Assembly: GCF_030285625.1 (NCBI RefSeq)
Contig: NZ_CP127294.1
Span: forward strand, 568,001-632,000
Direction: 5' to 3'
DNA: 64,000 bases
Source: Amycolatopsis sp. 2-15
GTDB taxonomy: Bacteria; Actinomycetota; Actinomycetes; Mycobacteriales; Pseudonocardiaceae
How positions within the stretch are numbered: position 1 is the first letter of the stretch; each line of letters starts with the position of its first letter. Below, in pieces: positions 2,831 to 46,467 of the stretch. The notes under the pieces were generated by a model. That model had not been told where the DNA came from. It made no database searches and was given only the letters and a program-made list of their open reading frames with translations. The position numbers and the translations under genes were made by a program.

Positions 2831-3991
2831 GTGACGCCGCCTGACCCCGAGCACAGCGCTGTGTTCGACTCGACTGCTGTGCCCGATTCAAACGCCGTGC
2901 CGGAAGAAGGTGCCGTGCCCTCGTCTCCCGCTGCCGGCAAGGGGGCGGGCAAGTCCTGGGCGCGCGGTGCGGTCCACCGTGGACTGGTCGCGCTGCCGCT
3001 CGTGGCCGGCCTCGTCACCGCGGGCTGGCTCGTGGCCGACCGTGACCAACCCGCGCCGCAGACTCCCGTCGCGACCGCCGCCACGGCTCAGGCCGGACCG
3101 TCGGTGCTCGAGGTGAGCGCGCCCGTCGCGGCGCAGGAACCCGGGCAGGGCGCCTCCGGCGGTGGCGGCAAGACGCCGTTGCAGCAGTGGGCCGAGTCGC
3201 TGGCCGGCCCCCTCGACATCCCGGCCGACGCGCTGATCGGCTACGCCAACGGCGAGCTCGCACTGCGCTCCGAAGATCCAGGCTGCCACCTGTCGTGGGT
3301 GACGCTCGCGGGCGTCGGCGAGGCCGGCTCCGACCACGGCCGCCACGGCGACAACCCGATGGGCCTCTCGCCGGCGGCGTGGAAGAAGTACGGCGCGAAG
3401 ATCCCCGGCATCGACAAGCCCGCCCTGACCGACCCCAGCTCGGCTTCGGTCGCCGCGGGCCGCGCCCTGTGCGCCGGCGGCGCCGATCTGTCCGCGGGCA
3501 CGGGCTGGTGGAAGTCGATCGCCTCGTACGCGAGCAAGGACACCGAGCTGTTCCGCCAGCGCGTGCTCGGCAACGCGCAGCTCTACGCCACGCTCTCGCT
3601 CGACCCTGCGAAGGCGAACAGCCCGGCCGTGCGCGCCACCCGCTTCGCCCTCGGCCAGCTCGGCCTCCCCTACGTCTGGGGCGGCAACGGTCCCGACGCC
3701 GGCGCCGCGGGCTTCGACTGCTCCGGCCTGACGAAGGCGTCGTACGACAGCGCCGGCGTCGCGCTGCCCCGCACGGCCGACAGCCAGTTCCGCGCCCTGC
3801 CCCCGGTCACCGGCGAACCCCAGCTCGGCGACCTCGTCTTCTACGGCTCCCCCGCCACGCGCATCCACCACGTCGGCCTGTACCTGGGCAACGGCCTGAT
3901 GATCAACGCGCCCACCGAGGGCCAGGCCATCCAGATCCACACCTACCACTCCCGCGGCGACGACTACGCGGGCGCGGGCCGCCCGGCCTGA
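2831..3991 (+). CDS. Exported NlpC/P60 peptidoglycan hydrolase with lytic-transglycosylase-like domain
   Basis: A 386-aa exported cell-wall enzyme. An acidic N-terminus is followed by a single hydrophobic segment (about residues 53-71), then a Pro/Ala/Gly linker. The middle domain (about 120-255) resembles a transglycosylase fold (LIGYANGELA, CHLSWVTLAGVGEAGSDHG). The C-terminal NlpC/P60 domain has ALGQLGLPYVWGG, the catalytic cysteine in FDCSGL (about Cys297) and the histidine in HHVGLYLG (about 346). NlpC/P60 enzymes cut D-Glu-mDAP bonds. GTG 2831 is chosen as the first start giving a signal-anchor at a sensible depth. No operon partner is visible. Confidence 0.88.
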   Translation: MTPPDPEHSAVFDSTAVPDSNAVPEEGAVPSSPAAGKGAGKSWARGAVHRGLVALPLVAGLVTAGWLVADRDQPAPQTPVATAATAQAGPSVLEVSAPVAAQEPGQGASGGGGKTPLQQWAESLAGPLDIPADALIGYANGELALRSEDPGCHLSWVTLAGVGEAGSDHGRHGDNPMGLSPAAWKKYGAKIPGIDKPALTDPSSASVAAGRALCAGGADLSAGTGWWKSIASYASKDTELFRQRVLGNAQLYATLSLDPAKANSPAVRATRFALGQLGLPYVWGGNGPDAGAAGFDCSGLTKASYDSAGVALPRTADSQFRALPPVTGEPQLGDLVFYGSPATRIHHVGLYLGNGLMINAPTEGQAIQIHTYHSRGDDYAGAGRPA

Positions 3992-4043
3992 TCACCGTTA
4001 TTTCAACCGTCTTGGCGACGGTGAGCTCGGTTAGCCTTTCGCC

Positions 4044-5371
4044 GTGCACAGCCAGGAATCCGGTGAACAGCTGGTCGATCTGCTCGCGCGCTACGCACGG
4101 GTGGGCGCGGACCGGACGTTCCGGAAGGACGCCGGAGTTTCCCTGCCGAGGGTGACGGACGCGACGAGGCCCGACGCGGACGTGCTGGCTGCCGCCGGTC
4201 GTCCGCACGACGCGCTGCGGCGGACCACCCACGACGACGCGGTCGCCACTCTCCGGGAGCTCGGGGCCGCGTGGGACGTCCGTGGGGCCGCGTCGGTGTG
4301 GGTTACCGGGCTGTGGTCAGCGTCGTGGGCGTGGCGCCCGGCGCTGACCGGGGTCCTCCTCGCCCGCGAGCTGCCCGAGCACGAGTCCGTTCGTATCGGG
4401 GATCGGACGTCTGCCGCGTGTGCGGGACGAAGGCGTCGCCGGTGCTCGCCCCGACGGACGCCTGGTACCGGCGGCACACCGAGGGCGCGCCGATCGACGG
4501 GGACGTGCCAGGACACGTTCTGGCTTTGGAAGAGCTGGCCGGGCAGCCGCGTCCGGTCCCGTCCGAGCACGACCGCTGGTTGCTGCGGGCGGTGCTGACC
4601 GTGCTTCGGACCTTGCCCGCCGGCAAGGGCTACGGGGCTGCTCGCACGGAGCTCAAGCGCCACCGGCTGCTGGACACGACCTCGGTCCACGCCTACGGCA
4701 GCGTGCTCGAGGAGCTCGCGCTCGTCGGCGTGGTGGCCACCGCGGACCACCCCGGGTTGGTGCGGCGCTGGTCGGACTACGTCGAGCGGGACCAGCGGCC
4801 GAACGACCGGATCGAGGTCCAGGGACCGCTGGCGTGGTGGCGATCGTCGGAGGGGCTGCGCGAGGACGTCGTGCGCGAGGTGTTCGCGGACTTCGACACC
4901 GGCGACGTGGATCTCGACGCGCCGCGCCCGGCGGCGGGCTCGACGATCGCAGCCGCCGTCGGAAAACGGGTCCGGGAGCTGGCCCGCACGGGCACGGTTG
5001 CGCGATCGGTCGGCACGGAACCGGCCGCGGCGGGCGACGTGTACGCCATGCGGGTCGCCGCCGACCGGTGGGTGACCTTGTACGTCTGGTCGGTCGACGC
5101 GACGGGCTCCCGGCCCTACGCGGAGGTCGAGTTCCTGGCCGGGCTGTTCCCGGAGCTCCCGGCCCCCGCGGCACTGTCGGGCCGGGTCCAGCCCCGCCGC
5201 GCCAAGCGGTGGCGATACCGCGCGCACTCCCTGGAGAAGGCGCCGAACACCCGGCGCGTCGCCCAGGGAGTGCCCGGCCCGGAGGCCGAGGGGCCGCCGC
5301 CCGACCGATCGGCCGCCGGGAACGCGAAGGACCTGCGCCTGCGCCGCCGCGTGTTCCCCGAACTGGGCTGA
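4044..5371 (+). pseudogene. Frameshifted hypothetical protein with CxxC motif
   Basis: Two adjacent frames make one continuous protein if one G is added to the GGGG run at 4398-4401. The first part (from GTG 4044, ending ..ELPEHESVRIG) then joins the second (..GSDVCRVCGTKASPVLAP..) and runs to TGA 5369-5371, about 442 aa in all. The second half has a single CxxC pair after the junction, helix-rich sequence and a basic C-terminus. No family was recognised. Either the gene has lost a base and is inactive, or the assembly lacks one G. Confidence 0.6.
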
Positions 5372-14550: not shown

Positions 14551-15249
14551 ATGAACGTCCTCTGGCTCTTCGCCCACCCCGACTCGCACTCCCTCGGCGG
14601 CGCGCTGCGCGACGAGGGCCTGGCGACGCTGCGCGCCCTCGGCCACGACGTGCGCGAGTCGGACCTGTACGCCATGCACTGGAACCCGGTCGTCGACGAG
14701 ATCGCCGCGGTCCCGGACGACGTCCGCGCCGAACAGGCCAAGCTGACCTGGGCCGATGCCGTGGTCTTCCAGTTCCCGCTCTGGTGGTACGGCACACCCG
14801 CCATGCTGAAAGGCTGGTTCGACCGCGTCTTCGTGCAGGGCTACGCCTACGACGTCCGAGACGAAGACGGCCGCACCCTCCGCTACGGCGAAGGCGCGCT
14901 GGCCGGCAAACGCGCGCTGGTCGTGGTCACCACCGGCTCGCCCGCCCCGGCGCTGGGCCCGCGTGGCGTGAACGGCCCGCTGCCCGACCTGCTGTTCGGG
15001 CTACAGCACGGCACGCTCTTCTACACCGGCATGTCGGTGCTGCCGCCCTTCGCCGTGTACGACGCGGATCGGATGACGCCGTGCGCCTTCGCGTCGGCCG
15101 CGTCGGCGCTGCGCTCGCGCTTGCGGGATCTCGCGACGGCTTCCCCGTTGCCGTTCCGCCCCCAGAACGGCGGCGACTACGGCCGTGACCATGTACTTCG
15201 GCCCGAAGTGGCACCCGGCCGCTCAGGCCTGGACGTGCACCTCGGCTGA
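14551..15249 (+). CDS. NAD(P)H-dependent oxidoreductase (NQO1-like flavodoxin fold)
   Basis: A 232-aa flavoprotein of the PF02525 group that reduces quinones or similar acceptors using FMN/FAD. The N-terminal phosphate loop AHPDSHSLGGALRDE, the VFQFPLWWYGTPAMLKGWFDRV segment and LVVVTTGSPA are characteristic. The C-terminal GGDYGRDHVLRPEVAPG is family-typical. ATG 14551 is one base after GCGAC, with a weak ribosome site. The start lies 71 bp from the divergent GlxA-type regulator. Its 3' end overlaps the tail of the decayed oxidoreductase remnant on the other strand. Confidence 0.9.
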   Translation: MNVLWLFAHPDSHSLGGALRDEGLATLRALGHDVRESDLYAMHWNPVVDEIAAVPDDVRAEQAKLTWADAVVFQFPLWWYGTPAMLKGWFDRVFVQGYAYDVRDEDGRTLRYGEGALAGKRALVVVTTGSPAPALGPRGVNGPLPDLLFGLQHGTLFYTGMSVLPPFAVYDADRMTPCAFASAASALRSRLRDLATASPLPFRPQNGGDYGRDHVLRPEVAPGRSGLDVHLG

Positions 15250-15580
15250 GGGCTGCCGGATCACCTCGACGACGCTGGCGACGCCGTGCGCCCCGTGTCC
15301 CCGGGCCACCGCCCGGTCGAACAGCTCGCGCACCGCCGCCGGCACGGTTGCGTCGAGGCCCCGTGAAGCCTCGACGAGGTGCGCCGGCCCGCGCGCATTG
15401 ATGTCCACAGAGGACACTTCCGTGCGGTAGCCCCCCGCCGCCCTCGCCACCGACCAGCGCCAACGCGTGCAGGTAACCGGCCATGGTGGTCCACATGATG
15501 CCGAGCAGCGCCAGATCGTAGGCCGCGGGTAGCCCGGCGTCGGCGCCGAGGAACGTCGGCGCGGCTACTTTTCGGCGGCG
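15223..15580 (-). pseudogene. Remnant of an imine-reductase-like NADPH oxidoreductase
   Basis: Two pieces of one family are read on the minus strand. The first (about 15575-15440) has PTFLGADAGLPAAYDLALLG and MWTTMAGYLHALALVG. The second, in another frame (about 15450-15223), has YRTEVSSVDINARGPAHLVE and GHGAHGVASVVEVIRQPS. In intact imine-reductase/6PGDH-like proteins these motifs are about 35-40 residues further apart and follow a Rossmann domain that is absent here. The gene has lost its N-terminus and an internal segment; the junction is at a G-rich run. It is not functional. Downstream convergent gene sequence overlaps its last codons. Confidence 0.7.
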
Positions 15581-15592
15581 CCGAGACCGCGT

Positions 15593-16186
15593 TCACGGCG
15601 CACCGGGAGCTGCTCGAAGTCCAGGTACAACTGCGGTCTCGACGCGGGCGAAGAACCCCTCGGCCGACTTCATGGCCGCGTCGTCGGCGAGTACGTCGCC
15701 GGGCCTGCTGCCGTTGCCCATCAGCGCACCGCCCCAGCGCATGCCCAGGTACGCGGCGGTCTTCTCCAACGTGCCCACCAGCGGGTCGGCCTGCTCGCGC
15801 CCCTCACTCAGCACGCTGACGCCCCACAGTGTCTTGCCCTTCATCCGCGCCTTGAACTCCGCCCCCGGCACCCGCATCCACCCCGACCAGTAGTCCAGGT
15901 ACAGCTTCACGCTCGCCGCCACCGAGTACCAGTACACCGGCGAGGCGATCACCAGGTCCGTGGCCGCGAACGTCGCGTCCATCAGCACCTTCTCGTTGCC
16001 CGCCGGCTCCGGGTGCTCGCCGAAGCCGTGCCGCCGGTCTTCGAACGCGGGCAGCGGCACCTCCGGCAGCCGGATCCACACTTGCTCGTGCTGCCGGGGG
16101 ACCTCCCTCGCGGCGCGTCGGGCCAGCATCTCGGTGTTGCCCCCGGCGCGTGCGGCCGCCACCAGGAACAGGAAGCTCCGATCCAT
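15593..16186 (-). CDS. NADPH-dependent FMN reductase / flavodoxin-family protein
   Basis: A 197-aa flavodoxin-fold protein. FLFLVAAARAGGNTEMLARRA forms the FMN phosphate loop and ATDLVIASPVYWYSVAASVKLYLDYWSG is the characteristic second motif. It probably reduces free flavin or quinone-like compounds. ATG 16186 follows a GGGGAGAG ribosome site at about 6 nt; an upstream in-frame ATG would add residues from the operator region. The divergent MarR gene and an intervening palindrome suggest repressor control. Its last residues abut the oxidoreductase remnant, so the original C-terminus may have been replaced. Confidence 0.87.
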   Translation of the reverse strand: MDRSFLFLVAAARAGGNTEMLARRAAREVPRQHEQVWIRLPEVPLPAFEDRRHGFGEHPEPAGNEKVLMDATFAATDLVIASPVYWYSVAASVKLYLDYWSGWMRVPGAEFKARMKGKTLWGVSVLSEGREQADPLVGTLEKTAAYLGMRWGGALMGNGSRPGDVLADDAAMKSAEGFFARVETAVVPGLRAAPGAP

Positions 16187-16210
16187 CACGATCTCTCCCC
16201 AGTCAGTTAT

Positions 16211-16243
16211 ATGCATGTGCATTCAAATGTTGTCACTGCATGT
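16211..16243. promoter_or_regulatory. Candidate MarR operator
   Basis: The AT-rich divergent spacer holds the palindrome ATGCA-TG-TGCAT (16211-16222) and two direct copies of TGCATGT (16212-16218, 16237-16243) 25 bp apart. MarR repressors usually bind such 10-20 bp palindromes in their own promoters. Confidence 0.55.
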
Positions 16244-16267
16244 ACTCTGACGTCAAGGGGAGGACCG

Positions 16268-16684
16268 ATGAGCAACGACGAAGACTCGTGGGGCCGGCTG
16301 CTCCAGCTCCACACCCGGGTCGAGCAGGAGCTGGCAAAAGCCTTGCAACGCAAGCACGGCATCGGGTTGTCCGAGTACCGCGCGCTTGGCAAGCTGGCGG
16401 CCGCGCCCAAGGGCGAGCTGCGGATGCAGGAGCTGGCCGAGGCTGTAGGGCTGAACCAGAGCTCGGTGAGCCGCATGGTCGCGCGGCTGGAGGAGCGGGG
16501 CCTGAGCGTTCGCGATCTCTGCGAAGACGACCGCCGGGGCGTCTACTCCGTGATCACCGAGGCAGGCCGCGCTCGGCACGCCGAGGTCGAGACGACCTAC
16601 CGCACCACCCTCACGGCCGCGCTCGACAAGGCGGGCGCCGACCCGGCGCTGGCGGCCGCGATCGCGTCGGTCCGAACCGCCTGA
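16268..16684 (+). CDS. MarR-family transcriptional regulator
   Basis: A 138-aa winged-helix regulator. MQELAEAVGLNQSSVSRMVARLEERGL gives the HTH and recognition helix, and DRRGVYSVITEAGR forms the wing. It should act as a dimer that releases DNA on binding phenolic or oxidant ligands. ATG 16268 lies 81 bp from the divergent FMN reductase, the classic arrangement for MarR control of a detoxifying reductase. The preceding GGGGAGG is a strong ribosome site. Confidence 0.92.
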   Translation: MSNDEDSWGRLLQLHTRVEQELAKALQRKHGIGLSEYRALGKLAAAPKGELRMQELAEAVGLNQSSVSRMVARLEERGLSVRDLCEDDRRGVYSVITEAGRARHAEVETTYRTTLTAALDKAGADPALAAAIASVRTA

Positions 16685-16705
16685 CTCGGGCCCGCCTCGG
16701 GAAAC

Positions 16706-17512
16706 TCAGCCCAGCGCGCGGTTGTACGGCGCGAACCGCCGCGCCGCTTCGCCCGGCAGCGGCCGGCCGCCGTGGACCAGGCGTGGTGCCGGGCCGATCG
16801 GCAGCAGGCCCGACGCGCGGCACCACTCGGAGAGGCCGGGCTGGGCGAGGTCCACGTCCACTCGGATCCGCCCGCCGGCCGCCCGCGCGATGCCGCGGAT
16901 CAACGCCCGGGCCTGCTCCTCGTCCGGCGCGACCACCGGGCCGATCACCGTTACCCCGTCCAGCACCGTGCCGAACGCGAAGCCGTCGTCGGTCACGTGG
17001 ACGTGCTCGGCCTCGAACAGCAGCCGGTCCAGCAGCGCCTCCCGGGTGAAGCCCTGCGCGCCGGCGTCGAGCGAATACACCCGGGCCACGTCGGACGGAG
17101 TGATCGGCCGCGAAGCCGGACCACCGTCGTCGGCGAGCACGCCGATGTGGCCTTCGCAGCCGCCGTCGGCCACGAAGCCGAGGGACTCGTAGAGCCGTAG
17201 CCCGAAGTCGCTCGCGTGCAGGAACACCGTGGCGTCGCCGGCGGCCTCGACCGCGTGCGCGGTCACCCGGCTGCCCAGGCCCTGGCGTTCGTACCGGGAA
17301 GCGACCACCACCATGGAGATCGACGCGACCGGTCCCGTCTCGACCAGGATCGAGGTGGCGGCGAGCCCGCCGTCGGGCGCGTCGATGCCGAAGCCTTGGC
17401 CGACGTCGAGCAGGATCGACCACTTGCGGTGCTCCCGCGGCCAGTCGCGGTCGGCTCCGAGGTCGAGGCAGGCGGACAGGTCGACGGGCCCGAGCGGGCG
17501 GACGGGAAGCAC
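16706..17512 (-). CDS. GNAT-family N-acetyltransferase with C-terminal GNAT-like domain
   Basis: A 268-aa protein. The first domain (about 1-130) carries the acetyl-CoA loop [15 protein letters not shown], the R/QxxGxG/A motif. A second, more divergent domain (about 135-268) follows, as in proteins of the Acetyltransf_18 type. GTG 17512 gives [16 protein letters not shown]. It is convergent with MarR and divergent from accD5 (70 bp apart). The acyl acceptor is unknown. Confidence 0.87.
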
Positions 17513-17582
17513 GCCGCCAGCCTATGCCCGGGGAGGCGTACGCCACACGCGAAGCGACCTGACGGTAGCTAAGCTCCGCTTC

Positions 17583-19217
17583 ATGAGCAGTGCGACGCAG
17601 CCGCTCGGGACTCCACCCGAGGAAGAACCGGACATCCACACCACGGCCGGCAAGCTCGCGGACCTCTACCGCCGCTACGACGAGGCCGTGCACGCCGGAT
17701 CCGAGCGTGCCATCGAGAAGCAGCACGCCAAGGGCAAGAAAACGGCCCGCGAGCGCATCGACCTGCTGCTCGACGAGGGTTCGTTCGTCGAGCTCGACGA
17801 GCTGGCGCGCCACCGCTCCACGAACTTCGGGCTGGAGAAGAACCGCCCGTACGGCGACGGCGTGGTGTCGGGCTACGGCACCGTCAACGGGCGGCCCGTG
17901 TGCGTGTTCTCCCAGGACGTCACGGTCTTCGGCGGCGCGCTCGGCGAGGTCTACGGCGAGAAGATCGTGAAGGTCATGGACCTCGCGATCAAAACCGGCT
18001 GCCCGATCATCGGCATGAACGAGGGCGGTGGCGCGCGCATCCAGGAAGGCGTGGTCTCCCTCGGCCTCTACGCCGAGATCTTCCGCCGCAACACCCATGC
18101 GTCGGGCGTGATCCCGCAGATCTCGCTGATCATGGGCGCCAACGCCGGCGGGCACGTCTACTCCCCCGCGCTCACCGACTTCGTGGTGATGGTCGACGAG
18201 ACGTCGCAGATGTTCATCACCGGCCCGGACGTCGTCAAGACCGTGACGGGCGAGGACGTGACCTTCGAGGAGCTCGGCGGCGCGCGCACGCACAACACCA
18301 AGTCCGGCGTCGCGCACTACCTGGGCTCCGACGACGAGGACGCGATCGCCTACGTCAAGGAACTGCTGTCGTACCTGCCGCAGAACAACCTTTCCGAGCC
18401 GCCGGCCTTCGAGCCGGGTGAGCCCGCCGGGTTCTTCGACGACGTGACCGACACCGACCGCGAGCTCGACACGATCATCCCCGACTCGCCGAACACGCCG
18501 TACGACATGCACGAGGTCGTCACCCGCGTGCTCGACGACGGCGAATTCCTCGAGGTCCACGAGCTCTTCGCGCCCAACATCCTCGTGGGCTTCGGCCGCG
18601 TCGACGGGCAGAGCGTGGGCGTGGTCGCGAACCAGCCGACGCAGTTCGCCGGCTGCCTCGACATCGCCGCGTCGGAGAAAGCCGCGCGGTTCGTGCGCAC
18701 GTGCGACGCGTTCAACATCCCCGTGCTCACCTTCGTGGACGTGCCCGGTTTCCTGCCCGGCACCGACCAGGAGTGGAACGGCATCATCCGCCGCGGCGCG
18801 AAGCTGATCTACGCCTACGCGGAGGCCACGGTCCCGCTGGTCACGGTGATCACGCGCAAGGCCTACGGCGGCGCGTACGACGTGATGGGCTCCAAGCACC
18901 TCGGCGCCGACGTCAACCTGGCCTGGCCGACCGCGCAGGTCGCGGTGATGGGCGCCCAAGGCGCGGCGAACATCGTGCACCGCAAGACACTCGCGGCCGC
19001 CGCGGCCGAGGGGCGCGACGTGGACGCGCTGCGCGCCGAGCTGATCCAGGAGTACGAGGACACGCTGCTGAACCCGTACGCCGCCGCCGAGCGCGGGTAC
19101 GTCGACTCGGTGATCGTGCCGGCGCACACGCGCGGCCACATCACGAAGGCGTTGGCGCTGCTGAAGACCAAGCGCGAAACGCTGCCACCCAAGAAGCACG
19201 GCAACATCCCCCTGTGA
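17583..19217 (+). CDS. accD5: Acyl-CoA (propionyl-CoA) carboxylase beta subunit
   Basis: A 544-aa carboxyltransferase subunit that moves CO2 from biotinyl-AccA3 to propionyl-CoA and related acyl-CoAs. The two crotonase-like halves show [10 protein letters not shown] and [15 protein letters not shown] in the first, and [19 protein letters not shown] and [18 protein letters not shown] in the second, whose oxyanion glycines are intact. ATG 17583 begins [20 protein letters not shown]. It is followed 8 nt later by accE5, as in mycobacteria, and the alpha subunit gene is 8.6 kb away. The symbol follows the mycobacterial order; substrate range is inferred from the family. Confidence 0.95.
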
Positions 19218-19225
19218 GGTCTCCC

Positions 19226-19441
19226 GTGAGCGATCGCCCTCTGCTCCGCGTCGTCCGCGGCAACCCGGACGACGCCGAACTCGCGGCCCTCACCGCCGTC
19301 GTCGCAGCGGTGGCGGCCGCTTCGGGTGGCTCGCCCGCGCCCCAACGCCGCACGTCGTGGTGGAACGACCGCGCGACCCGGCTGAGCACGACGCCGCACC
19401 CGGGCGACGGCGCGTGGCCGGCTTCGGCGCTGCCGCGCTGA
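19226..19441 (+). CDS. accE5: Acyl-CoA carboxylase epsilon subunit
   Basis: A 71-aa small subunit. LRVVRGNPDDAELAALTAVV is the recognised core of the actinobacterial epsilon subunits that bridge the alpha and beta subunits and raise activity. The C-terminus has the short WWNDR segment. GTG 19226 lies 8 nt after the accD5 stop, implying translational coupling. A palindromic repeat begins 10 nt after its stop. Confidence 0.92.
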   Translation: MSDRPLLRVVRGNPDDAELAALTAVVAAVAAASGGSPAPQRRTSWWNDRATRLSTTPHPGDGAWPASALPR

Positions 19442-19450
19442 CCCAAGCCG

Positions 19451-19529
19451 CCCCAATGTGGCGTTCGGTGCGCCCAACGCACCCAATGCGGCGTTCGGTG
19501 CGTTCAGCGCAACCAACGCCGCATTGGGG
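19451..19529. repeat. Dispersed palindromic repeat, copy A
   Basis: Two 30-bp direct units (19452-19481 and 19482-19511), each starting CCCAATG(T/C)GGCGTTCGG, are followed by an inverted half unit, ACCAACGCCGCATTGGGG (19512-19529). The inverted piece can pair with either direct unit to give a long hairpin. It fills the gap between accE5 (stop 19441) and the convergent TetR gene (stop at 19538-19536). The same family recurs at 45379-45457. It reads as NAALGA-type peptides in several frames, which are artefacts of the repeat. Confidence 0.93.
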
Positions 19530-19535
19530 CAGGCG

Positions 19536-20147
19536 TCAGATGCCGGCGCAGGCGTTCACGACGCGGTCGGCCAGGGCGTCGGTGAACTCGCGTGTGACGG
19601 GCGCGCCGGTGACCAGTACGCGGTAGTGGACGGGCCCGATGGCCTGCTCCACCAGGCTGTCGAGCTCGGTGTCGGCGGGGAGCTCGCCGCGGGCGACCGC
19701 GCGTTCGAACGGCAGCCGGTCGCGTTCGTGCTGCCCGTGGATCTGCTCCGCACGCAGCCGCGCGGCCAGCTCCGGGTCGTGCTGTGCCTGGCCGATGAGC
19801 GCACGGAACACCGCGCCGGCGTCGGCCGTGGTCAGGAAGGTCGCGACGGCCGCGAGGTGCTCCCGCAGGTCGCGGCGCAGGTCGCCGTGGTCGGGCGGCA
19901 CGAGCTCCTCGGCGAGGTCGTCGCCGAGCGCGTCCAGCAGAATGTCCACTTTGGACGGCCACCAGCGGTAGATCGTCTGCTTCGCCACGCCCGCGGCGGC
20001 CGCGATCCGCTCGATCGTGAGCCCGGCGAAACCGTGTTCCACCAGCAGGTCGTCGGCAGCCTCCAGCACGGCGCGGCGTGCGTCCTCGCTGCGGCCGTAG
20101 CGGTTCCCGTGGTGCCGGCGCGTGTCCGGTGCAGTGGTGTTTCCCAC
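19536..20147 (-). CDS. TetR-family transcriptional regulator
   Basis: A 203-aa repressor. The N-terminal HTH (about 25-70) is LTIERIAAAAGVAKQTIYRWW, followed by the helical TetR_C_16-like ligand domain. It is divergent from the MFS gene at 20228, and inverted repeats lie in the 80-bp spacer, so it probably represses that transporter and itself. The N-terminus from 20147 (MGNTTAPDTRRHHGNR) is family-plausible. The stop is 6 nt from repeat copy A. Confidence 0.92.
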   Translation of the reverse strand: MGNTTAPDTRRHHGNRYGRSEDARRAVLEAADDLLVEHGFAGLTIERIAAAAGVAKQTIYRWWPSKVDILLDALGDDLAEELVPPDHGDLRRDLREHLAAVATFLTTADAGAVFRALIGQAQHDPELAARLRAEQIHGQHERDRLPFERAVARGELPADTELDSLVEQAIGPVHYRVLVTGAPVTREFTDALADRVVNACAGI

Positions 20148-20168
20148 CTCGGCGAGCCTAATCGGCTT

Positions 20169-20195
20169 CTAGACAAGACGCAACGTCGCGTCTAG
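20169..20195. promoter_or_regulatory. Candidate TetR operator
   Basis: Two overlapping dyads lie in the divergent spacer: CTAGAC/GTCTAG (20169-20174, 20190-20195) and AGACGC/GCGTCT (20176-20181, 20188-20193). The second, with a 6-bp centre, has the size expected for a TetR dimer. Confidence 0.6.
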
Positions 20196-20227
20196 CGTAG
20201 GCCGCGGCAAAAAGGGGGTCACTCGAC

Positions 20228-21556
20228 ATGTGTTCCGCGTGTGGCGTGCCGACGCACGTCCTGGAGGAAGGCGGCAAGGACGGCGCGGTCGCGACCGCGC
20301 CGCGCAAGTTCGCCGCGCTGTACAACAAGGACTGCCGTCCGTACCTGTTCGGCGCGGCGCTGGCGATGATGGCCGACAACATCGAGCACGTCATCACCTA
20401 CTGGGTGCTGTGGGAGAAGTTCCACTCGCCCGCGCTCACCGGTTTCGAGGTGATCAGCCACTGGGTGCCGTTCCTGCTGTTCTCGGTGTACTTCGGCGGA
20501 CTGGCCGACCGGCACGACTGCCGGCGGATCATCCAGGCCGCGCAGGTGTTGTTCATGCTCGTGTCGGCACTGTGGGGCGTGCTGATCCTCACCGACTCGC
20601 TGCAGGTCTGGAGCGCGTGCGTGCTGCTGATCTTGCACGGCGTCGCGGGCGCGGTCTGGGGTCCGGGCGAACAGCTGATGCTGCACGACTTCGTCGGCCC
20701 GGCCGAGCTGCCGAGCGCGGTGCGGCTCAACGCGACGTTCCGCAGCCTGGGGATTCTCTTCGGCCCGGTCGTCGGGTCGGCGCTACTGCTCGGACTGGGG
20801 CCGGTGGTGGGGATCTTCGTGAACGTCGCGTTCTACCTGCCGCTCACGATCTTCTTGTTCCGCACCAAGTTCACCGGCCACACCCGCGACGGCGGCATCG
20901 TGGCGCGCCCGCGCGTGGGCCTGTTCGACTCGGTGCGGGTGCTGCGCGAGGTCGGCGCGAACCCGACGATGGTCGGGATGATCATCCTGGCCGGCCTCGG
21001 CGCCTTCTTCGTCGGTGCGTCCCTGCAGAGCTCGATGCCGATCTTCGCCCAGGACCTGGGCGCGGGCAGCGCCGGCACCGCGTACGGCGTGCTGCTGTTC
21101 GCCAACGGCGCCGGAGGCGTCCTCGGCGGCATCCTGCTGGAGGCGACGGGCCGGATCAAACCGAGCGTGTTCGCGGCTGTGGTCAGCACGGCGATCTACG
21201 GGCTGTCGAGCCTGTTCTTCGCCCTGACGGCCAGTTATCCACTCGCCTTGGTACTGCTGGTGATCGGCGGGGTCGCGAACCTGGCGTCGATGTCGATCGG
21301 GCAGACGGTGGTGCAGCTGCTGGCGAAACCGGCCGAACGCGGGCGGGTGATCGGGGTGTACAACGTCTCCGCCAACGGCCTGCGCGCCGGCAGCGGGTTC
21401 ACCGTCGGCCTGCTCGGCGCGGCAGTGGGGGTGCACTGGTCCCTGGGCCTGAGCGCGGCCGCGCTGACGGTGGGCACCGGGATATCCGGCTGGTACTCGC
21501 TGTGGGGGAAGCGGGCGAGGGAGGCTCGCAAGCAGCTGCAGCACGTGGCCGACTGA
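20228..21556 (+). CDS. MFS transporter (EntS-like)
   Basis: A 442-aa permease with about 12 membrane segments. Its N-terminal CSACGVPTHVLEEGGKDG is an unusually long cysteine-containing cytoplasmic tail. ALAMMADNIEHVITYWVLWEKF and FGGLADRHDCRRII place it among the MFS_3/EntS-type exporters, and VSANGLRAGSGFTVGLLGAA is in the second half. ATG 20228 follows an AAAAAGGGGG stretch. Control by the divergent TetR is likely, making this a possible export or resistance unit. A hairpin follows the stop. Confidence 0.88.
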   Translation: MCSACGVPTHVLEEGGKDGAVATAPRKFAALYNKDCRPYLFGAALAMMADNIEHVITYWVLWEKFHSPALTGFEVISHWVPFLLFSVYFGGLADRHDCRRIIQAAQVLFMLVSALWGVLILTDSLQVWSACVLLILHGVAGAVWGPGEQLMLHDFVGPAELPSAVRLNATFRSLGILFGPVVGSALLLGLGPVVGIFVNVAFYLPLTIFLFRTKFTGHTRDGGIVARPRVGLFDSVRVLREVGANPTMVGMIILAGLGAFFVGASLQSSMPIFAQDLGAGSAGTAYGVLLFANGAGGVLGGILLEATGRIKPSVFAAVVSTAIYGLSSLFFALTASYPLALVLLVIGGVANLASMSIGQTVVQLLAKPAERGRVIGVYNVSANGLRAGSGFTVGLLGAAVGVHWSLGLSAAALTVGTGISGWYSLWGKRAREARKQLQHVAD

Positions 21557-21572
21557 GGTTCGGGAGTCCTTT

Positions 21573-21610
21573 CGACGCCCGTCGTCCCCTGTCCGGGGCG
21601 GCGGGCGTCG
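21573..21610 (+). terminator. Hairpin after MFS gene
   Basis: A 9-bp stem, CGACGCCCG (21573-21581) with CGGGCGTCG (21602-21610), has a GC-rich internal loop and starts 16 nt after the stop. Confidence 0.55.
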
Positions 21611-21827
21611 TCGTCGTTTGCGCTGGTCACGCATAGCGATCGCGGTTTTTGTCGGTGCCGCCGGTTACCGTGTCGGCATCGGGTCCAAGCCTTGCCATCA
21701 CCGTGCGCGACAGCGCGCTCACCAGCGCAAATCACACTGGACCCGTTCGTACTCGAAGCCGTACAGTCTTCACGCATATAGTCCACGTGGAATAACCACG
21801 CCGGATCACTCGAAGGGATCAACAGCC

Positions 21828-22448
21828 ATGGTTGCGGCGAAGCTGACCGCTCTGGGGGTGGCCGTGCTGGAGCTTCTCCACGAGAAGCCGATGCACCCCT
21901 ACGAGATGGCTCAGCTCATGCGCGAGCGGTACGTGGACCAGCGCGTGAAGCTGAAGGCCGGGTCGCTCTACCACACCGTGGAACGGTTGCAGCACAACGG
22001 TTTCGTCGAGATCGTCGACACCCAGCGCGACGGCCGGCGGCCCGAGCGGACGGTGTACGCGATGACGGCAGCCGGCAAGGACGTGTTCGAGCAGCGAGCG
22101 CGGGAGATGCTGGGCGACGTCGCCCAGGAGTACCCGGAGTTCCTCAGCGGGCTGGCGGTCATCGACGACCTCGGCCGGGACATGTCGCTGGCCGAGCTGG
22201 AGCACCGCCTCACGCTGCTGCGCGCGAGCGTCGCGGCGGATCAGGTCATGTTCGAGCGCGTGCGCGACAACGCGGTCCCCGAGATCTACTGGCTTGACTT
22301 CCGCTACGCCGCCGCCCACCGGGCTTTTGAACTCGAGTGGTGCGAACGCCTGTACGCCGACCTTGCCTCAGGGCGCATCCGGTTCCAGGACGAGAAGCCC
22401 TCCCTCAGTCTCATCACCAAGGAAGACCATGAACGCAAGACAAGCTAA
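21828..22448 (+). CDS. PadR-family transcriptional regulator
   Basis: A 206-aa winged-helix regulator of the PadR/Vir type. The N-terminal domain (about 5-90) reads VLELLHEKPMHPYEMAQLM and SLYHTVERLQHNGFVEIVD. The C-terminal coiled region (about 105-185) is the Vir_act_alpha_C dimerisation part. ATG 21828 follows GAAGGG. Its 3' end overlaps the start of the DHA2 efflux gene by 20 nt, so the two are co-transcribed, and PadR-controlled multidrug efflux is the simplest reading. Confidence 0.92.
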   Translation: MVAAKLTALGVAVLELLHEKPMHPYEMAQLMRERYVDQRVKLKAGSLYHTVERLQHNGFVEIVDTQRDGRRPERTVYAMTAAGKDVFEQRAREMLGDVAQEYPEFLSGLAVIDDLGRDMSLAELEHRLTLLRASVAADQVMFERVRDNAVPEIYWLDFRYAAAHRAFELEWCERLYADLASGRIRFQDEKPSLSLITKEDHERKTS

Positions 22449-24054
22449 CCCGTGGGCCGCGCTGAGCGCGTTGTGCCTGGGGTTCTTCATGATCCTGCTG
22501 GACACCACCATCGTGTCCATCGCCGTGCCGAACATGCTGAGCAAGCTCAACACGGGCTTGAACTCCGTGGTGTGGGTGATCAGCGTCTACCTGCTGACCT
22601 ACGCCGTGCCGATGCTGTTCACCAGCCGCCTGGGTGACCGTTTCGGGCCGAAGCGGGTGTTCCTCGCCGGCCTGATCGTGTTCACCGGCGCCTCGCTCTG
22701 GTGCGGCCTGTCCGGCAGCGTCGAGATGCTCATCGCGGCCCGCGCCGTGCAGGGCCTCGGCGCCGCGCTGATGACGCCGCAGACGCTGGCGTTCATCACG
22801 CACCTGTTCCCGCCTGCCAAGCGCGGCCCCGCGATGGGCGCGTGGGGCGGCGTCGCCGGCCTGGCCACCATCGCCGGCCCGCTGCTGGGCGGCGTACTGG
22901 TCGACCACCTCGGCTGGGAGTGGATCTTCTTCGTCAACGTGCCGATCGGCGTGATCGCCATCGTCCTGACGGTGCTGCTCGTGCCCGATTGGCAGCCGAA
23001 AAACTCGCACGCGTTCGACTTCATCGGCATCTTCCTGTCGGCGGCGGGCCTGTTCTGCGTGGTGTTCGGCGTGCAGAACGGCCAGCAGTACGACTGGGGC
23101 ACGGTCTTCGCCGGCATCACGGTGTTCGAGTTCATCGGCGCCGGCGTGGTGCTGCTCGTGGCGTTCGTGCTGTGGCAGAAGTACAACCGCCGCGAACCGC
23201 TGGTGCCGCTCGGCGTGTTCGCCAACCGCAACTTCTCCGCGGGCACACTCACGGCCACGACCGTCGGCTTCACGATGACCGGCATGTTCCTGCCGCTGAT
23301 CATCTACATCCAGACCGTGCTCGGCCTGAGCCCCACGCTCGCCGGCGCGCTGACCGCGCCGATGTCGCTGCTGTCGGGCGTCATCGCGCCGTTCGTGGGC
23401 CGCGCGTCGGACCGCATCAACGGCAAGTACCTCGTGATGGGCGGCCTTTCCCTGCTCGCGCTGGGCATCGGCATCATCGCCGTGCAGGCCCGCCCGGACA
23501 CCAGCCCGTGGGCGCTGATCCCGGCGCTGCTCGTCTGCGGTCTCGGCATCGGCTGCATCTTCTCCCCGATGAGCAACCTGACCATGGCCTCGGTGCAGCC
23601 CAAGCTCGCCGGCACCGCGTCGGGCATCTTCAACACCGCCCGCCAGGTCGGCGGCGTCCTCGGCAGCGCGGCCATCGGCGTGCTCCTGCAGGCCCGCATC
23701 AGCGCCTCCATCGCCGACGAGGCCACCACCGCCGCGGCGCAGCTGCCCGAGCAGTACCGCCAGCCCTTCGCCGACGGCATCGCCCACGCCGCGGCGTCCA
23801 CGGGCGAGTTCGGCTCCTCCGGGGGTCCCGCGCCCATCCCGGGCCTCCCCGCCGACATCGCCGCCCAAGCGGGCCGCCTCGCCTCCGAAGCCGTGCACAA
23901 CGGCCTCACCGACGCCGCCCGCGCCACCCTGATCCTGCCGATCGCCGTGCTGATCCTCGGCGTCCTCTCGGCGTCCTTCCTGCGCCGCGTCACCCCCCGC
24001 CCCGCCCCGACGCCCACCACCCCGACCACCTCGGAAACCCCGGTCACTGCCTGA
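22429..24054 (+). CDS. DHA2-family MFS drug transporter (EmrB/QacA type)
   Basis: A 541-aa exporter with 14 predicted membrane spans. LDTTIVSIAVPNM is motif D1 of the DHA2 group, RLGDRFGPKRVFLAG is motif A, and GPLLGGVLVDHLGWEWIFFVNVPIG is motif C with the following span. The C-terminal tail is Pro/Thr-rich. ATG 22429 lies inside the end of padR and reads MNARQANPWAALSALCLGFF; earlier in-frame starts would lie deep in padR. A long hairpin terminator follows. Confidence 0.92.
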   Translation: MNARQANPWAALSALCLGFFMILLDTTIVSIAVPNMLSKLNTGLNSVVWVISVYLLTYAVPMLFTSRLGDRFGPKRVFLAGLIVFTGASLWCGLSGSVEMLIAARAVQGLGAALMTPQTLAFITHLFPPAKRGPAMGAWGGVAGLATIAGPLLGGVLVDHLGWEWIFFVNVPIGVIAIVLTVLLVPDWQPKNSHAFDFIGIFLSAAGLFCVVFGVQNGQQYDWGTVFAGITVFEFIGAGVVLLVAFVLWQKYNRREPLVPLGVFANRNFSAGTLTATTVGFTMTGMFLPLIIYIQTVLGLSPTLAGALTAPMSLLSGVIAPFVGRASDRINGKYLVMGGLSLLALGIGIIAVQARPDTSPWALIPALLVCGLGIGCIFSPMSNLTMASVQPKLAGTASGIFNTARQVGGVLGSAAIGVLLQARISASIADEATTAAAQLPEQYRQPFADGIAHAAASTGEFGSSGGPAPIPGLPADIAAQAGRLASEAVHNGLTDAARATLILPIAVLILGVLSASFLRRVTPRPAPTPTTPTTSETPVTA

Positions 24055-45002: not shown

Positions 45003-45378
45003 GACATCCCTTCTACGGCACTGCGTCGCATTCTGCCCGCCGAACGGCCGCGACGTCAGCCGCCACGCGGTGGAGCCCCTCCGCTCAGCACGCGCCACCG
45101 CCCGCCGACCGCATCTCCACACGGTGACCGGTCGTCACGGAGCGTGGAGCGGTCGTGAGGTCAGACCAAAGTAGTCACTTCGGGGGACCGTTCATCAGCC
45201 GAACGGGGCCGGTGGGCCACCGAGGGTGGGTTCAGCGGGCCGGTCACCGCCTCGCCGCCTCGAACGTGAGCCGCGCTGCGCAGTGAGAGAAAGTGAACAC
45301 CACCGCCTTCAGTAGTCACATATCGGGCATCTTCTACTCCCGCTCGTGCAGCCTCGACTGCCCACATGGCACTCCGCG
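45003..45378. other. Intergenic region upstream of repeat copy B
   Basis: No gene is supported. Open frames crossing it are Arg/Ala/Pro-rich or run into the repeat. It probably contains the promoter of the small membrane protein gene (minus strand). Confidence 0.5.
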
Positions 45379-45457
45379 CCCCAATGCGGCGTTGGGTGCG
45401 CTCAACGCACCGAACGCCGCATTGGGTGCGCTCAACGCAACCAACGCCGCATTGGGG
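45379..45457. repeat. Dispersed palindromic repeat, copy B
   Basis: The CCCCAATGCGGCGTTGG core appears in direct orientation at 45379 and as its reverse complement twice (from 45410 and 45440). The cores are separated by TGCGCTCAACGCA, itself a short palindrome. The last 18 bases, ACCAACGCCGCATTGGGG, are identical to the end of copy A at 19512-19529. It ends 5 nt before the meaB stop at 45463-45465. Confidence 0.93.
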
Positions 45458-45462
45458 TGCTT

Positions 45463-46467
45463 TCAGCCGTCGGTCGGGTCGGTCGGCTCGCCGAACGCCG
45501 TGAGGATCCGCTCCGCAGCCAGCGTCGCCGTGAGTTCGCCGTCGCGGACCGCGCGTTCGACGTCGTGCACCTGCGCGCGCACAGACGGGTGTGAGGTCAG
45601 CCGGTCGAGGAGCTGCTCGCGGACCATGGACCAGGTCCAGTCGACCTGCTGTTGCCGGCGGCGGGCGTCGAGCTCGCCCGTGTCCTGCATCAGCGAGCGG
45701 TGGCGGCCGATGGTCGCCCACACCTCTTCGAGGCCGGAGCCCTCGAGGCCGCTGCACGTGAGCACCGGCGGCGTCCACGGCGCGTCCTTGCCGTAGATCA
45801 TCCGCAGCGCGCCCGAGAGCTCGCGGGCCGCGCGGGCGGCGTCGCGCGCGTGGGAGCCGTCGGCCTTGTTCACGGCGATGACGTCGGCCAGTTCGAGCAC
45901 GCCCTTCTTGATGCCCTGCAGCTGATCGCCCGTGCGGGCCAAGGTCAGGAACAAGAAGGAGTCGACCATGTTGGCCACCGCGACCTCGGACTGCCCGACA
46001 CCGACGGTCTCCACCAGCACCACGTCGAAGCCCGCCGCCTCCATCAGCACGATCGTCTCGCGGGTCGCCCGCGCGACCCCGCCCAACGTGCCCGAGGTCG
46101 GAGACGGGCGGATGAAGGCCCGGGGATCCACGGCCAGCCGCGACATCCGGGTCTTGTCGCCGAGGATGGAGCCGCCCGTGCGGGTGGAGGAGGGGTCGAC
46201 GGCGAGCACGGCGACGCGGTGGCCGGCCGTCGTGAGGTCCGTGCCCAGCTGGTCGATGAAAGTCGACTTGCCGACACCGGGTACGCCCGTGATGCCGACC
46301 CGCTGGGCGCCCCCGGCGTGCGGCAGCAGTTCCACGAGCAGCTCCTGGGCCTGCGCCCGGTGGTCCGCCCGGTGCGACTCGACCAGCGTGATCGCCTTGG
46401 ACAGGGTGCCGCGGTCGCCCGCGAGCACGCCCTTCGCGTAGGCGGCGACGTCGATCCTGCGCGGCAA
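45463..46467 (-). CDS. meaB: Methylmalonyl-CoA mutase-associated GTPase
   Basis: A 334-aa G3E-family GTPase that gates B12 loading into, and protects, methylmalonyl-CoA mutase. The P-loop GVPGVGKST is at 61-69. LAVDPSSTRTGGSILGDKTRM is Switch-like, DVVLVETVGVGQSEVAVANM is Walker B, and AVNKADGS is the guanine-specificity motif. The start is TTG 46467, three bases after the mutB TGA, so expression depends on mutB translation. Repeat copy B lies directly after its stop. Confidence 0.94.
   Translation of the reverse strand: MPRRIDVAAYAKGVLAGDRGTLSKAITLVESHRADHRAQAQELLVELLPHAGGAQRVGITGVPGVGKSTFIDQLGTDLTTAGHRVAVLAVDPSSTRTGGSILGDKTRMSRLAVDPRAFIRPSPTSGTLGGVARATRETIVLMEAAGFDVVLVETVGVGQSEVAVANMVDSFLFLTLARTGDQLQGIKKGVLELADVIAVNKADGSHARDAARAARELSGALRMIYGKDAPWTPPVLTCSGLEGSGLEEVWATIGRHRSLMQDTGELDARRRQQQVDWTWSMVREQLLDRLTSHPSVRAQVHDVERAVRDGELTATLAAERILTAFGEPTDPTDG

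Follow-up and report, generated by a model that had tools for sequence, protein, structure and literature searches.

A family of dispersed, REP-like palindrome arrays linked to gene 3' ends in Amycolatopsis and some other genera of its family

Two palindrome arrays in a 64-kb window

The whole stretch of DNA analysed here, hereafter called the window, is 64 kb long and belongs to a single-contig genome of 10,050,063 bp (10.05 Mb) from the genus Amycolatopsis. An array of palindromic units (copy A) separates the convergent genes accE5 and a TetR-family regulator gene, and another such array (copy B) is located just past the stop codon of meaB. The relevant features are listed below.

17583..19217, strand +: acyl-CoA carboxylase carboxyltransferase gene, upstream of accE5 (PF01039, 9.3e-206)
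19226..19441, strand +: accE5, acyl-CoA carboxylase epsilon subunit (PF13822 ACC_epsilon, 1.4e-21)
19452..19528, no strand assigned: copy A, an array in which three 15-bp near-palindromic units follow one another at 30-bp intervals and take up most of the 94-nt accE5/TetR gap
19453..19467, strand +: copy A unit 1, CCAATGTGGCGTTCG
19468..19482, no strand assigned: copy A spacer 1, 15 bp, an imperfect palindrome
19483..19497, strand +: copy A unit 2, CCAATGCGGCGTTCG
19498..19512, no strand assigned: copy A spacer 2, 15 bp, an imperfect palindrome
19513..19527, strand -: copy A unit 3, inverted, reading CCAACGCCGCATTGG on the + strand
19536..20069, strand -: TetR-family regulator, convergent with accE5 (PF00440, PF16859), its stop 6-7 nt from copy A
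45380..45456, no strand assigned: copy B, a three-unit array that lies 6 nt past the meaB stop, the next called gene being 377 nt away
45463..46467, strand -: meaB, methylmalonyl-CoA mutase-associated GTPase (NF006958, 5.3e-154), with copy B just past its stop

The first CCCAATG core of copy A begins at 19452, which is 10 nt on from the accE5 stop codon (TGA, 19439-19441). The cores of the direct 30-bp units start at 19452 and 19482 and the inverted unit spans 19515-19528. The last of the units runs to 19528/19529, and 19536 is the first base of the TetR stop codon (TCA). A preceding sequence-only reading of this locus had described two direct 30-bp units and an inverted half unit, located 10 nt from accE5 and 6 nt from the TetR stop, together with a second locus 26 kb away; the coordinates and distances are correct, and the second locus is the three-unit copy B. 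When up to two mismatches are allowed, a 14-bp core has six matches in the window compared with 0.83 expected, and none of 100 shuffles reaches six.

A genome-wide family built on a 30-bp ruler

The repeating motif of the family is a 15-bp near-palindrome (CCAAYGYSGCRTTSG); its arrays keep a spacing of exactly 30 bp in nearly all cases and have inverted outer ends. The 17-mer ACCAACGCCGCATTGGG has 104 matches in the genome with at most two mismatches, compared with three for a control in which the same pattern is read backwards, and a looser pattern gives 350 matches versus 44 in its control. The genome search proposed in the sequence-only reading thus places arrays or single units at at least 66 places, not two, which rules out a chance repeat of two copies. 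This count is a lower bound that covers the window and 56 stretches fetched around sites among the matches listed, and a few copies may be missed. Adjacent unit pairs counted over the entire genome (at most two mismatches) number 105, and on this basis we consider the sample of 66 places to be near complete.

Three units is the most common arrangement (36 places), followed by two units (17 places), one (7 places), four (5 places) and six (1 place), and the unit spacing is exactly 30 bp in 106 of 109 instances. Arrays of two, three and more units end alike, with the consensus AAGCRCC ahead of the first CCAATG and GGYGCTT behind the last CATTGG. CCAATG opens the first unit in 45 of 59 arrays and, when read on the reverse strand, the last unit in 54 of 59. 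Array ends in this genome take the form AAGCRCCCCAAT, and the AAGCRCC/GGYGCTT consensus constitutes terminal inverted repeats of the sort used to define MITEs. Both the fixed outer boundary and the stop-codon-linked position that had been noticed for the original copies are seen across the arrays.

A shared insert of approximately 40 nt, of the GCGCCTCCGTTGAGGG...GGCATGGATGGAGCA type, is present in or beside a few arrays (L010 at ~15650-15700, L011 at 4033-4070, L030 at ~4066-4130 and L057 at ~4100-4145, with a remnant in L049 at ~3704-3720). It represents either a longer form of the array or a second, nested repeat.

A search of Rfam returned no family, and its microRNA-like matches all fall below the cut-offs (E 0.16-0.34), so identity with an Rfam family is ruled out. 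Neither the four core sequences searched for nor any such family in Amycolatopsis or Pseudonocardiaceae was found in the open-licence papers covered.

Arrays are mostly located just past stop codons

On the basis of codon-score gene calls, from which all gene-pair classes derive, the 66 places comprise 38 convergent gaps, 23 tandem gaps, 2 divergent gaps, 2 sites in called genes and 1 site at a locus edge. As a comparison set we used the gaps of at least 30 nt in 400 kb of the genome of a sister species (G075), of which 39 are convergent, 131 tandem and 55 divergent. Relative to these gaps, the 63 classed arrays exhibit an excess in convergent positions (Fisher, p = 1e-10) and a deficit in divergent positions (p = 5e-5). 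In tandem gaps, 21 of the 22 arrays with at least two units lie closer to the stop codon upstream than to the gene that follows, and the median distances for tandem-gap arrays are 23.5 nt to the upstream stop versus 161.5 nt to the next gene.

An in-frame array is found within nuoG (NF005895, 1286.9 bits). Its three units (L033 4063-4139, or ~979,862-979,938 in the genome) start at residue 701 and encode PNVAFGALSAPNATLGALNATNATLG, with 10 codons per 30-bp unit. The NuoG protein of the sister species carries an unrelated, shorter stretch at this site (48 versus 93 nt between the anchors). Although a unit can be read as 10 codons, we rejected coding as the main role of the family because a protein search with the nuoG array stretch matched only that protein itself (1 of 43 candidates). 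A single unit at L062 4088 was also considered as a coding insertion, and it is not counted because the open frame there looks over-extended.

Among the 17-mer matches listed, only 3 of 100 places lie between 4.68 and 8.29 Mb, an interval that makes up approximately 36% of the chromosome. This copy-poor stretch may be a non-core part of the chromosome.

Predicted hairpins and conservation of the palindrome

A long hairpin had been proposed for copy A, and the predicted RNA fold of positions 19442-19535 is indeed strong on both strands, at -65.3 kcal/mol on the + strand (z -8.2) and -66.0 kcal/mol on the - strand (z -7.2). Copy B (45371-45462) yields -62.2 kcal/mol on the + strand (z -8.2) and -68.8 kcal/mol on the - strand (z -9.9), and the medians for 59 arrays on the two strands are -59.6 and -56.9 kcal/mol, with median z scores of -7.7 and -7.4. 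In these models, an array on either strand forms one hairpin, with pairing predicted between the outer units and the inner unit closing the loop.

The 15-nt spacer is left free by the search pattern and therefore provides a view of the palindrome that the search does not impose. In an alignment of 37 related, hand-picked sequences from several species, 80.5% of spacer cells can pair, compared with 20-44% when the partner is slid. The spacer covariation score is 0.400 versus 0.207, and none of 500 shuffles scores as high. However, the counts that resist relatedness do not stand out from those of shuffles, either for the spacer (3 pairs with change on both sides versus 3.4; 8 pair types versus 8.6) or for the whole stem (8 versus 7.1 and 17 versus 16.4, respectively). 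We therefore conclude that the palindrome is kept, but that compensation beyond shared descent is not secure. Inside this genome, the outer units show no covariation at position 7 (p = 0.57) or at position 14, which is mismatched in 38 of 59 arrays (p = 0.06).

As for intrinsic terminators, the arrays present a GC-rich stem-loop just past a stop codon but mostly lack a U-tract, given that four or more T residues within 8 nt occur at only 6 of 118 array ends. A terminator pattern scan of positions 15000-24000 likewise names no terminator at 19452-19528.

The 3'-end slot in the sister species

Hairpins are a usual feature of convergent gaps in the sister species. Among gaps of 30-200 nt in the 400 kb of sister sequence, a fold with z below -4 is found in 22 of 29 convergent gaps, compared with 12 of 92 tandem gaps and 1 of 28 divergent gaps, and 24 of the 29 convergent gaps contain a scored stem-loop. 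The ordinary hairpins of the sister genome with stems of at least 12 have a T-run of at least 4 on either side in only 3 of 23 cases. The sister's convergent gaps (L205-L224 of G075) usually contain long, GC-rich hairpins whose U-tract is slight or absent.

In the array-bearing convergent gaps of the present genome, the array is the sole scored hairpin in 27 of 35, and a second scored hairpin lies beside it in the other 8. Fifteen gaps of the sister species match array-bearing places but are array-free, and 12 of these can be scored: four have another strong hairpin (L025, L026, L036 and L037), one has a weak hairpin (the copy B site, a 302-nt gap) and seven have none. Three of the four replacement-hairpin gaps fold with z of approximately -4 to -12, and L037 gives -0.9 to -2.3 over its whole, longer gap. 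These counts indicate that an array takes the site usually occupied by a convergent-gene hairpin in the genus, yet does not always replace one.

Distribution across relatives

The exact 16-base core is present in 57 of 80 genomes of the genus, with 0 to 551 matches per genome (at most 2 per strand for the control). Of 350 genomes in the family, 78 contain a two-unit pattern in which the 15-nt spacer is free; these represent 10 of 44 genera, and the control for this pattern was found in none. At least five genera (g1, g42, g49, g56 and g63) include a genome with nine or more unit pairs; g48 has one genome with 8 pairs, g59 and g61 have 2-6 pairs, and g27 and g64 have one match each, which could be due to chance. 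Across the class, the same pattern occurs in 1 of 394 genomes, this being the genome described here, and in none of the 393 others.

We viewed 20 stretches from three other genera (G123, G193 and G149), in which the 30-bp ruler and the kind of location are kept, with 9 copies in convergent gaps, 10 in tandem gaps and 1 in a divergent gap. These copies carry their own spacers and ends. Among eight G123 copies, seven have AGCTCC at the left end and six have GGAGCT at the right end; among six G149 copies, two have GTAC at each end.

Copy numbers vary widely within genera. Two of the eight genomes of g49 have 81 and 62 unit pairs and the other six have 0-1. Within the genus, G071, G010, G012 and G026 have 281-345 core matches versus 16-27 in G024, G277, G282 and G065, and in all eight of these genomes MeaB is 88-89% identical to the protein of the present genome.

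Turnover between close species

Stretches fetched from the sister species allowed 19 of the 66 places to be matched, with flanks that are 82-99% and mostly more than 90% identical. Fifteen of these 19, including the sites of copies A and B, have no array in G075, where absence means that, with up to two mismatches allowed, none was seen in the gap or in the 25 nt flanking it on each side. We conclude from this proportion that the family turns over fast. Four places are filled in both species (L027 4455, L028, L030 and L035), and the unit number differs by one at three of them (3 versus 2, 4 versus 3, and 3 versus 2). A clean junction is evident at L031, where two stop codons are 3 nt apart in the sister species versus 40 nt here, with one unit between them.

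The sequence-only reading had also raised the possibility of a domesticated terminator; taken to mean an old and conserved element, this fails for copies A and B in the orthologous loci compared. Copy A is absent within 260 nt past the stop in 16 of 16 TetR orthologues (the nearest 16 of 29 other loci), and accE5 is still within 1.5 kb in 11 of these 16 loci. Copy B is similarly absent within 260 nt past the stop in 23 of 23 MeaB orthologues from the 29 other loci.

One of the places shared with the sister species, the 3' end of dapE, offers a finer view. Within 210 nt of this end in 30 orthologues there are six arrays (the present genome, G075, G062, G286, G078 and G063), one cut remnant (G060) and 23 ends with none. 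In a clade of 13 genomes whose following sequence can be aligned, four sites are filled, eight are empty and one holds the remnant; the distance from the first base of the dapE stop to the anchor is 95-126 nt for filled sites and 3-17 nt for empty ones (9 nt in the empty site of G274). Several of the 23 array-free ends (e.g. G033, G009, G026 and G071) carry a different long inverted repeat, as judged by eye. No target-site duplication was seen at L031 and dapE, which are among the few clean sites.

The remnant in G060 (L283) breaks off after CCCCAATG and continues into other sequence, perhaps an insertion sequence.

A search for enzymes that could move the arrays

In most cases, REP-like elements are associated with a RAYT transposase. 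We searched for such enzymes with the PF01797 profile alone, which we take to include RAYTs as well as IS200-type transposases. The profile matched none of the 60 genus genomes searched; among 11 repeat-bearing genomes from other genera it was absent in 10, and control genomes were positive in 5 of 14 cases. The lone match outside the genus (G239, 5,088,851-5,089,104) is interrupted by a stop codon, leaving no intact IS200/REP-type transposase among the 71 genomes searched by this profile. The earlier proposal that copy A is REP-like is borne out by the genome search, which finds many copies. The family does not, however, match a classical REP linked to RAYT, because no intact PF01797 gene was found in the genomes searched.

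At L044 two arrays flank a gene that was viewed as a mobiliser candidate, and the interval between them contains one weak open frame (score 16). Plasmid and phage collections yielded no match to copy A, and viral contigs none to an exact 21-base pattern; there is thus no sign of a mobile replicon as the carrier.

Interpretation and alternative explanations

We regard the existence of a family of dispersed, mobile palindromes linked to gene 3' ends as well shown, and the assignment of this family to the REP-like elements as very probable. Copy A would accordingly belong to a set of short mobile palindromes, REP-like and non-autonomous, that occurs in Amycolatopsis and in some other genera of the same bacterial family. 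In RNA made from either strand, the outer units would pair and the middle unit would close the loop to yield a GC-rich, U-poor hairpin, and this hairpin may end a transcript or protect its 3' end. Judged from sequence features, a role for the arrays as 3'-end terminators or stabilisers is reasonably probable, and termination is the best-supported function on the basis of position, structure and slot exchange. The array may therefore be a bidirectional terminator in a slot that is otherwise filled by another hairpin, and its palindrome would be recognized by a mobilising enzyme that is not a Y1 transposase of the IS200/RAYT type. For the complete reading, in which REP-like mobile palindromes moved by a non-Y1 enzyme supply U-poor bidirectional terminators, we lean only slightly towards acceptance.

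A broader scheme is offered more tentatively, as a possibility that we do not yet favour. Here the arrays would be transposable terminators, in which a non-Y1 enzyme or the cell's own replication and repair of hairpins moves palindromes with a 30-bp ruler to sites just past stop codons. They would replace resident hairpins and rewrite gene 3' ends between sister species, and would have spread in one actinomycete family with spacers particular to each lineage while the core and the ruler are kept.

The most serious alternative, although we consider it unlikely, is a selfish REP-like parasite without host function that inserts anywhere and survives in 3' gaps because coding sequences and promoters are intolerant of it. 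Such a parasite would fit the quick turnover between close species, the range of 0 to 551 core matches among the 80 genomes of the genus, the lack of covariation between outer units inside this genome and the array-free gaps that have no replacement hairpin. It would also fit the copies at sites where a terminator is unneeded, namely the one in nuoG and the two in divergent gaps. Survival solely where harmless could explain part of the position pattern. However, with neutral survival one would not expect arrays in long tandem gaps to lie so close to the upstream stop (21 of 22), nor to occupy a slot otherwise filled by hairpins in which the array is usually the sole scored one (27 of 35).

It is improbable that the arrays are instead protein-binding sites, at which a nucleoid protein, gyrase or a dimeric regulator would bind the 15-bp palindrome, with the 30-bp period (approximately three helical turns) placing successive sites on one face of the helix. 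This model draws on the conservation of the period in the four genera viewed despite differing spacers, on the location of most of the invariant columns in the core (in one alignment partly fixed by the search pattern) and on the scarcity of arrays at 4.68-8.29 Mb. Yet the spacer is palindromic too, which a site-spacing model does not need, and many relatives keep the flanking genes without such sites.

Still less credible is a classical REPIN moved by a RAYT transposase. The arrays share with REPINs, as these are portrayed in part of PMC3116915, inverted hairpin doublets, many copies, an extragenic location and a lineage-specific consensus. Against this, PF01797 is missing from all 60 genus genomes and from 10 of the 11 others, with the G239 match broken by a stop, and array ends do not have the GTAG/GTGG start of most published REPs listed.

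Finally, DNA uptake sequences (DUS) paired as terminators, for which closely spaced inverted pairs in Neisseria provide a precedent (PMC2397512, partial text), can be dismissed as scarcely plausible, because single units occur at just 7 of 66 places, only 2 of 66 places are in called genes and some relatives have no copies at all.

Comparison with known repeat systems

In behaviour the arrays come closest to REP/REPIN elements and to the pneumococcal SPRITE. The REP, BIME and REPIN elements of Pseudomonas and Escherichia coli resemble the arrays in being short palindromes with regular spacing and alternating orientation, which form folding inverted doublets and number up to hundreds at extragenic sites (PMC3116915, PMC2817692, from the parts available). 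Of the features that define REPs and REPINs, the arrays possess dispersed, mostly extragenic short palindromes and inverted doublets that fold, but not a cognate RAYT or a conserved GTAG-like end. Most of the REPs listed in the accessible text of PMC3116915 and PMC2817692 begin with GTAG/GTGG or TGTAG/TGTGG. REP elements are described as targets of insertion sequences (PMC1525189, in the portion available). The arrays are further distinguished by the absence of an intact Y1/RAYT gene in our searches and of a GTAG end, and by their 30-bp ruler, usual complement of three units, tight link to stop codons and occurrence as seen in one actinomycete family.

The pneumococcal Rho-independent terminator-like element SPRITE is similar to the arrays in that its repeats lie at gene 3' ends and have been proposed to be co-opted terminators (PMC3049150, in part). 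SPRITE is AT-rich, with an 18-bp duplex, a uridine-rich tract and 30 elements in one genome (the same partial source), whereas the arrays are GC-rich, U-poor and multi-unit and have clean empty sites. Rickettsia palindromic elements (RPEs) provide a parallel for a palindromic repeat inserted in frame inside a metabolic gene; they are approximately 150 bp long and often intragenic (both points from the available part of PMC10969869), whereas nuoG is the one clear in-frame case among our 66 places. The paired DUS of Neisseria also form inverted pairs that act as terminators (PMC2397512, as excerpted), but the arrays are not single signals, are rarely found in genes and are absent from some relatives. 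MITEs are likewise short and dispersed, with inverted ends and presence/absence differences between relatives; the arrays differ from them in that no target-site duplication was seen at the few clean sites, in having no known parent transposon and in their variable number of 30-bp units.

Implications for the antibiotic-producer group

The antibiotic-producer group to which these bacteria belong has a REP-like family for which no RAYT was found and which offers natural filled and empty sites in relatives. This combination makes two questions testable, namely what moves REP-like palindromes where a RAYT is lacking and whether mobile repeats do take over transcription termination. The U-poor hairpins in the convergent gaps of the sister species represent a style of terminator that is worth separate study. 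More generally, intergenic hairpins in such genomes are possibly recent insertions rather than conserved regulators.
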